Shown in pieces: positions 38,214 to 40,187 of a stretch of 64,000 nt of DNA. The notes under the pieces are model-generated. The model was not told the DNA's origin, searched no databases, and saw only the letters and a list, made by a program, of their open reading frames with translations. The position numbers were made by a program, and so were the translations under genes. This DNA is from Acidihalobacter aeolianus (lineage in GTDB: Bacteria; Pseudomonadota; Gammaproteobacteria; DSM-5130; Acidihalobacteraceae), in the NCBI RefSeq assembly GCF_001753165.1, contig NZ_CP017448.1, forward strand, positions 2,188,462 to 2,252,461, in the 5' to 3' direction. Position 1 is the first letter of the stretch. Each line of letters begins with the position of its first letter.

Positions 38214-38681
38214 CTAGCTATCGCCCTGAGCGACAATCTCGATGCCCCGCAATGTTTCTCCCCCCGCAAAGCGACGCCGTAATGCTTCACCGTCGGACAC
38301 CAGATCAGCCAGCGTCACGGCATCCAAAACCCCGAAGAACGCGGCCCTGGCCTGCGCCAGGGCATCCACCAGACCGCACACACCGAGAATCGAGCAGGCC
38401 GGGTTACGGCAATCGATCAACGTCGTCCCGGGTTCCGTATCGCGCACCACGTTGCCAATACGGATTTCGGACGGGGATCTCGCCAGGCGCATGCCACCAC
38501 CCTTGCCGCGCAGCGTAGTGACGTAGCCCAGGCGCGCAAGCCGGTTGACGATCTTGGCCAGATGATTGCGCGCCACGTGCAACTGCGCGGCCAATTCGTC
38601 AATGGTGACGAGCCGCTCCTGCATGGCGCCCAAGTACATCAGAACGCGTAAGGAGAAATCGGTATGTTGAGTAAGGTGCAT
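38214..38681 (-). CDS. nsrR: NsrR-type Rrf2 nitric-oxide-responsive repressor
   Basis: 155 aa. Winged helix MHLTQHTDFSLRVLMYLGAM with the recognition region HVARNHLAKIVNRL, a basic wing RGKGGGMRLAR, and the iron-sulfur ligands Cys91, Cys96 and Cys102 with 4- and 5-residue spacing, the spacing of NsrR. The [2Fe-2S] or [4Fe-4S] cluster is destroyed by NO, relieving repression. It is the third gene of the haemoglobin-reductase-nsrR series, whose promoter carries an NsrR-type operator, implying autoregulation. Confidence 0.93.
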   Translation of the reverse strand: MHLTQHTDFSLRVLMYLGAMQERLVTIDELAAQLHVARNHLAKIVNRLARLGYVTTLRGKGGGMRLARSPSEIRIGNVVRDTEPGTTLIDCRNPACSILGVCGLVDALAQARAAFFGVLDAVTLADLVSDGEALRRRFAGGETLRGIEIVAQGDS

Positions 38682-38739
38682 GGCCCGACAACATCAAGTT
38701 GACGAGGAAGTATAACGCGCCTGCGCACGGAGGCGAACG

Positions 38740-39726
38740 CTAGGCGATGGCGCCCCCTGCGGGCAGAAAGGCATCGACATAGATATCGCTTAGCCCAGCA
38801 CCTGCGAGATAGGCCCGTTTGCGCATCCGGTTGACCAATTCCGGAGACCCGCAAAAATAGCTCCGCCAACCCTTCAACGCGGGATGCGCACCGAATCCGA
38901 TATCGTCCACCCTGCCGACCGCGCACGCCCTTCCGACTTCACCCTCAATAACGCAAGGCAGGTATTCCAGATTCGGGTACCGTTCCGCCAGTGCATGCAG
39001 CTCGTCGACGAGATACAGATCCGCCTTGCTGCGCGCACCGTGATAAAGATGGATCGGCCCGGAGTGACCACTGGCCAGGGCATCGCAGACAATGCCGTAA
39101 AGCGGGGCCAGCCCGGTTCCCGTACCGATCAGTAGTATCGGCTGATCCGGATTGCCGGGCATATAGAAGCAGCTGCCGTGCGGCCCTTGAATACGCATCG
39201 ATTCACCGACCACGGCATGAGACCTCAGCCAATCGCTCATCGCACCACCGGGTATATGCCGAACATGCAATTCAAGCGTGTCCCCTGGGGCGCTAGCGCA
39301 ACCTGCCAGGGAATAACTACGCCGGAGTCCGTCCTCCCGAACCAGATTGATGAACTGCCCGGAGCGGTGTGGGAATGTGCTCTCAGGCGCCACACGGACG
39401 CGCATCACACTGGAATTGAGCATCTCCACGCCAGCCAAACGTACCGATGTTTCACCCATGGCCACTTCACCCGCAAGCACCACATCGAGGTCGCTTTCGG
39501 GTCGACACTGACAAGCCAGAAAATAGTTTTGCGCCTTCAGCGTATCTTTCAGTCCGGCCTGGGCCACGGGCGGGACATGTCCCGCCCGCGCCTGCATCAG
39601 GCAGCTTTGACACACCCCGCTGCGACAGGCGTTCGGGATTTCCACCCCTGCTCCTTCCAGCGTCTCCAGCACGCTGGCGCCCGAATGCACCGAATAATCG
39701 GTGCCGGCATAATGAATCTTCGCCAT
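38740..39726 (-). CDS. 2Fe-2S / FAD / NAD(P)H electron-transfer reductase
   Basis: 328 aa. N-terminal plant-type ferredoxin (about 1-95) with Cys34, Cys39, Cys42 and Cys72. FAD domain with RRSYSLAGC and GGAMSDWL, then NAD domain with LIGTGTGLAPLYGI and a C-terminal YFCGSPELV. This matches the phenol hydroxylase P5 / CDP-deoxyglucoseen reductase type. Positioned 40 nt after the truncated haemoglobin gene, it is the obvious candidate to reduce that haem, replacing the reductase half of a flavohaemoglobin (inference). The genes share an NsrR-type operator. Confidence 0.9.
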   Translation of the reverse strand: MAKIHYAGTDYSVHSGASVLETLEGAGVEIPNACRSGVCQSCLMQARAGHVPPVAQAGLKDTLKAQNYFLACQCRPESDLDVVLAGEVAMGETSVRLAGVEMLNSSVMRVRVAPESTFPHRSGQFINLVREDGLRRSYSLAGCASAPGDTLELHVRHIPGGAMSDWLRSHAVVGESMRIQGPHGSCFYMPGNPDQPILLIGTGTGLAPLYGIVCDALASGHSGPIHLYHGARSKADLYLVDELHALAERYPNLEYLPCVIEGEVGRACAVGRVDDIGFGAHPALKGWRSYFCGSPELVNRMRKRAYLAGAGLSDIYVDAFLPAGGAIA

Positions 39727-39766
39727 CAGCGGTAGCCTGCCTTCTCGTCTAAAGGATCGATCAACC

Positions 39767-40132
39767 TCAGCGATTAAGCACGTCGTTGCGTACGGACTCG
39801 GCGGTCGCCGCGACTTGGGCGATCAGATCTTCCGGTACATTCAATTCGCGCAGCGACTCACCCAGCAGTTCGATGATCACGTCTACGTGGGTATCGTTGA
39901 GCCCACGCTCCACCAGGCGTTTGTGGCCTTCGCGCATATCATGGCCGGTATAGTTGTGAGGTCCGCCGAAGGCCATGGTCAAAAAGGCCTTTTGCTTTGC
40001 TGCCTGCCTCTCCATGTCCGTGTCGTCGAAGAACCCGTTGACCCGATCATCCGCCAATACCTTTCGGTAGAAGATGTCCACTGCCGCATCCACTGCCTTG
40101 TCTCCGCCCAGCTGTTCGTAAAGGCTGCTCAT
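39767..40132 (-). CDS. Group I truncated haemoglobin (TrHbN-like)
   Basis: 121 aa, the usual length of the 2-on-2 globins. Family features: YEQLGG near the N-terminus, the B-helix FYRKVLADDR with Tyr22 as likely B10, FLTMAFGGPHNYTG, and the proximal His70 in MREGHKRLVERGL. TrHbN proteins turn NO into nitrate with O2. First gene of the operon with a reductase and nsrR, under a promoter with a near-perfect NsrR box, which supports an NO-dioxygenase role. Confidence 0.95.
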   Translation of the reverse strand: MSSLYEQLGGDKAVDAAVDIFYRKVLADDRVNGFFDDTDMERQAAKQKAFLTMAFGGPHNYTGHDMREGHKRLVERGLNDTHVDVIIELLGESLRELNVPEDLIAQVAATAESVRNDVLNR

Positions 40133-40164
40133 GCTCGTATGCTCCTCAAGGGTTGTTTACCAAA

Positions 40165-40187
40165 AAGATGCATCGAAGATACATGTT
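40165..40187 (-). promoter_or_regulatory. NsrR operator upstream of the truncated haemoglobin gene
   Basis: Read on the minus strand: AACATGTAT-CTTCG-ATGCATCTT, 23 bp. It fits the E. coli NsrR consensus AANATGYAT-N5-ATGCATNTT in both half sites. It overlaps the predicted -10 box, 33 nt ahead of the start codon, as expected for repression. Confidence 0.85.

Follow-up and report, generated by a model that had tools for sequence, protein, structure and literature searches.

A widespread reductase clade as candidate electron donor of group I truncated haemoglobins, an NsrR-linked operon of Acidihalobacter aeolianus and a natural reductase-globin fusion

On balance, comparison of genes and genomes leads us to favour the view that one widespread reductase clade is dedicated to supplying electrons to group I truncated haemoglobins in several phyla, and that in one genus the two proteins have been joined in an undescribed reductase-globin fusion, a "truncated flavohaemoglobin". 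Within this family we analysed a three-gene operon of Acidihalobacter aeolianus, which we read, with a probability of about 0.85, as encoding a putative two-protein nitric-oxide dioxygenase together with its own NO-sensing repressor. The reading draws on gene linkage, NsrR-like boxes, the reductase tree and the fusion.

The operon and its two redox proteins

The window, that is, the whole 64,000-nt stretch of DNA that was analysed, comes from A. aeolianus (GTDB lineage Pseudomonadota; Gammaproteobacteria; DSM-5130; Acidihalobacteraceae) and spans positions 2,188,462-2,252,461 of the forward strand of NZ_CP017448.1 in assembly GCF_001753165.1. On its minus strand, positions 38214-40187 hold a palindromic box followed by a truncated globin gene, a reductase gene and an NsrR-type gene, in that order:

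40165..40187, minus strand: NsrR box, palindromic, AACATGTAT-CTTCG-ATGCATCTT, 23 bp, a match to the consensus
39767..40132, minus strand: group I truncated haemoglobin (TrHbN / cyanoglobin-like), 121 aa, Pfam PF01152
38740..39726, minus strand: three-domain [2Fe-2S]-FAD-NAD reductase, 328 aa, Pfam Fer2, FAD_binding_6 and NAD_binding_1
38214..38681, minus strand: NsrR-type Rrf2 repressor, 155 aa, Pfam Rrf2, with Asp8 and Cys91/96/102

The initial annotation had proposed the globin, the reductase, NsrR and the box, and all four were recovered at the positions it gave on this strand. The intergenic gaps are short (40 bp between globin and reductase, 58 bp between reductase and nsrR), consistent with one three-gene transcript, so that the genes would form a single transcription unit.

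The globin matches Pfam Bac_globin (PF01152) at 64.8 bits, and its nearest solved structures are cyanoglobins (E 4.5e-37). All features of a group I truncated haemoglobin are present, namely PF01152, the GG motif, Tyr-B10, Phe-CD1, Gln-E11 and His-F8, and the pocket reads Tyr22(B10), Phe35(CD1), Gln43(E7), Gln47(E11) and His70(F8), with the M. tuberculosis HbN sequence serving only as a guide to this numbering. Every one of the 105 paired globins shares Tyr22, Phe35, Gln43, Lys46, Gln47 and His70, an invariance that is partly built in at positions 22 and 43-49 because part of the set was picked by patterns spanning these; Phe35 and His70 lie outside both selection patterns.

The reductase carries a plant-type [2Fe-2S] site (Cys34/39/42/72), the FAD motif RSYS at 136-139 and an NAD-binding domain, and both the cysteines and RSYS are invariant across the family. 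It falls below the NCBIfam cut-off for all named families, scoring 57.7 bits with the Hmp model PRK13289 (cut-off 432), to which its FAD/NAD part is distantly related. A search of viral contigs found no relative of the reductase, and a search of plasmids found the globin-reductase pair in Methylocystis rosea.

Pairing across genomes, the reductase clade and the fusion

Recurrence of the pair in other genomes had been put forward as a check on the two-protein reading, and the pair does recur. A class survey of 229 sampled genomes by reductase profile search gave 37 places scoring 261-553 bits, followed by a crowd at 244 bits and below; the upper set was taken as the reductase subfamily, with the boundary chosen after the gap was seen. 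The subfamily is found in 34 of these genomes and the globin in 44, and 33 of the 34 reductase-bearing genomes hold both (Fisher p = 3e-29, a guide only because related genomes are not independent). Thirty-two of the 37 reductases lie immediately downstream of a globin gene on the same strand, at 4-168 bp. In a second set of 80 GTDB loci, picked by globin similarity and thus biased towards similar globins, 72 hold the pair, and six of the other eight encode tandem globins. Paired loci occur in Methylococcales, Chromatiales, Gallionellaceae, Methylosinus, Acidobacteriota, Hydrogenedentota and Myxococcota. The pairing is not absolute, since a minority of the reductases stand without a globin and a minority of related globins without a reductase.

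Several loci depart from the common layout. At L040, L044, L071, L073, L090, L100, L167 and L168, single frames encode proteins of 266-404 aa in which two or three group I truncated globins stand in tandem; these have no adjacent reductase, and some have an NsrR-like box ahead (for example L044:1458). In Methylobacter-type loci (L045, L054, L059, L043), a stretch of a few kb contains two globin-reductase pairs that point towards each other. At L164 and L165 (genomes G188 and G048) an NsrR-like gene and a truncated globin gene diverge on either side of a box-like site, and there is no reductase; at L164 a second, 3/3-type globin follows the truncated one. At L158:1556-3337 (G105:C115) a reductase of the clade without a globin adjoins a hemerythrin-domain gene, whose product is a possible alternative NO- or O2-binding partner.

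Of 104 loci, 42 have a box with at most one mismatch in the 300 bp upstream of the globin, and in 62 none was found; only four more such boxes occur elsewhere in the 777 kb of sequence. An nsrR-like gene is present in 58 of 105 loci, usually divergent and sometimes third in the operon as in A. aeolianus. Globin and reductase distances are correlated (r 0.61, Mantel p 0.001), no more strongly than either gene is with nsrR; because nsrR correlates as strongly, we attribute the correlation to common inheritance rather than contact and rejected it as evidence of physical interaction.

In the tree, a single clade (SH-aLRT 100) contains all globin-paired reductases and is set apart from paralogues that have the same domains; it also takes in three reductases without a globin partner, as well as the fusions. 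The fusion was first seen as a 530-aa frame in genome G200, with Fer2, FAD, NAD and Bac_globin domains:

L155:1365-2957 (G200:C31:36667-38256), and L171-L176: reductase-globin fusion, about 530 aa, with a Cys-containing C-terminal end

It is found in seven genomes of one genus, and its conservation in the six beyond G200 (82-85% identity) argues against an assembly accident. Some of these genomes also carry a normal two-gene pair beside it. The globin part keeps Tyr-B10, Phe-CD1, Gln-E11 and His-F8, and has Leu-E7 as in M. tuberculosis HbN. No description of a bacterial truncated globin-reductase fusion was found in the open-access literature searched. As judged from sequence, the occurrence of this fusion in nature lends independent weight to the view that globin and reductase form a functional couple.

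These observations bear on the first alternative, in which the reductase serves another oxygenase or a hemerythrin and is merely co-regulated with the globin, which would be reduced by general cellular flavoproteins. Its nearest solved sequence is the P450 reductase 5ogx, and the nearest solved reductases as a group serve a P450, toluene-4-monooxygenase and benzoate dioxygenase; some clade members, moreover, lack a globin, one of them being the neighbour of the hemerythrin gene. However, the A. aeolianus operon contains no oxygenase, most of the surveyed reductases sit directly behind a globin, and in one lineage the two are a single protein. We therefore hold this alternative to be improbable, though it is the strongest of those considered, and prefer a dedicated globin-reductase couple.

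Genomic setting, control and proposed mechanism

NasA, NirBD, a NarK-type transporter and CysG are encoded 2-12 kb from the operon, and this neighbourhood is kept in two congeners and was not found in a related genus (G004). NO could plausibly arise locally from nitrate assimilation. The same proximity, with its synteny within the genus, would also fit a pair that, coordinated with the nitrate-assimilation genes, mainly reduces nitrite or hydroxylamine, removes peroxide or supplies O2. Such a role appears slightly less probable still than the first alternative: the boxes are those of the NO sensor NsrR, not of nitrate regulators, and the pair occurs in several phyla while the synteny does not extend beyond the genus. 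The Tyr-B10/Gln-E11 pocket, too, is that of the NO-dioxygenating HbN, and speaks for NO dioxygenation as the main activity.

Two related genomes show altered loci. In G004 (L184:13788-14862) the globin is kept, the reductase match ends after residue 222 and no nsrR is nearby, which looks like real decay of reductase and nsrR as far as the sequence can tell. In the sister genome G001 (L183), frame breaks occur in the reductase, CysG and NasA genes. Loss of the reductase in this sister species (frame break at residue 257) was considered and rejected: since this stretch also has split CysG and NasA genes, the break is probably a sequencing error.

The box lies 33 bp upstream of the globin start. 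With up to three mismatches allowed, the window has no other match, and 100 shuffles gave none. It differs at one position from the published NsrR consensus, gATGyAT-N5-ATrCATc (PMC1274295), which bears out the 23-bp NsrR box of the initial annotation. A scan of the whole genome returned one other site equally good, lying among long ORFs without a related gene nearby, and none for a backwards-read control pattern, leaving the box as apparently the one credible NsrR site in the 3.5 Mb of the genome. The accompanying claim that the box overlaps the promoter was plausible but not confirmed: no sigma-70-type promoter at the box passes the consensus scan, and the best candidate picked by eye (TTGCTT-N17-TATCTT) has only 7 of 12 consensus matches. 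As the promoter and terminator scan performed at chance level, we claim neither element.

The regulator matches Pfam Rrf2 at 113 bits. NsrR is its best NCBIfam model (129.4 bits), below the 182-bit equivalog cut-off, which is a naming threshold and not a functional feature. Among solved structures it is closest to the [4Fe-4S] NsrR 5n07 (E 2.8e-19), with which its only three cysteines, C91, C96 and C102, as first annotated, and Asp8 are in register. That it is instead a related iron or redox sensor (RirA/IscR-like), with the operon answering iron or oxidative stress, is very unlikely: the NCBIfam RirA and NsrR models (102 and 129 bits) both stay under their cut-offs, but in its cysteine spacing and Asp8 the protein follows NsrR, and the box fits the NsrR consensus in A. 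aeolianus and its relatives.

Searches of the genome gave no full flavohaemoglobin (Hmp) over the curated cut-off, no hybrid cluster protein (Hcp) and, above 23 bits, no further NsrR-like protein. For this reason the operon is probably the genome's only NsrR target and its main aerobic NO defence. A search for nnrS also gave no match, but its control was silent too, and this absence is not counted.

Under the proposed mechanism of a two-protein NO dioxygenase, [4Fe-4S]-NsrR bound to the box would hold all three genes low in the absence of NO, nsrR included. NO would destroy the NsrR cluster and release the repressor, allowing the operon to be expressed. The ferrous haem of the truncated globin would then bind O2 in the Tyr-B10/Gln-E7/Gln-E11 pocket and convert NO to nitrate, leaving ferric haem, which the reductase would re-reduce with electrons passed through FAD and [2Fe-2S]. 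NADH rather than NADPH as donor, and NO as substrate, are both our expectation. Globin and reductase together would replace Hmp, which the genome appears to lack. The description of the operon as a split, autoregulated flavohaemoglobin thus gains strong support from comparative evidence, namely linkage, boxes, clade and fusion.

Relation to known systems

In vitro, any globin can dioxygenate NO if it is re-reduced, and for most globins the physiological reductase is missing (PMC2323109). The reductase family described here is a clear genetic candidate for the globin reductant in many genomes, a large proportion of which belong to methanotrophs; the natural fusion makes the pairing directly testable.

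The A. aeolianus globin resembles M. tuberculosis HbN as a group I truncated globin with Tyr-B10, Phe-CD1, Gln-E11 and His-F8, and differs from it in having Gln rather than Leu at E7, no pre-A segment, and an adjacent reductase and NsrR. The reductase shares domain order and cofactor motifs with the BenC, MmoC and GcoB types but belongs to a separate, globin-linked clade and has no oxygenase nearby. With Hmp the operon shares the proposed chemistry and NsrR control; whereas Hmp is one chain with a 3/3 globin, the A. aeolianus system comprises two proteins, with a 2/2 globin and an extra [2Fe-2S] domain. It is proposed to work like Hmp and is not a member of the Hmp family. In the fusion, the domain order reductase-globin is the reverse of that in flavohaemoglobin.

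The closest precedent is glbN-lpg2536 of Legionella pneumophila, a cyanoglobin with a ferredoxin reductase. Rodionov et al. 2005 (PMC1274295) described this pair as that organism's one NsrR target and proposed that it oxidizes NO in the manner of Hmp; Gardner 2012 (PMC3820574) cites it in support of the view that truncated globins receive electrons from ferredoxin reductases. The initial annotation knew of no dedicated reductase described for a group I truncated haemoglobin in this arrangement; both papers describe one, and its interpretation is sound but, given the 2005 description, not new. Our search of the open-access literature found no experimental study of lpg2536. In both loci a ferredoxin reductase gene comes after a truncated globin gene, with an NsrR site ahead; L. 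pneumophila has no hmp, and A. aeolianus appears to lack it too; in A. aeolianus, nsrR is in addition the third gene of the operon, the reductases being likened here by published description. The A. aeolianus operon is in itself an expected case of the 2005 prediction and a further member of the kind it foresaw; what is added here is the fusion and how widespread the family is.
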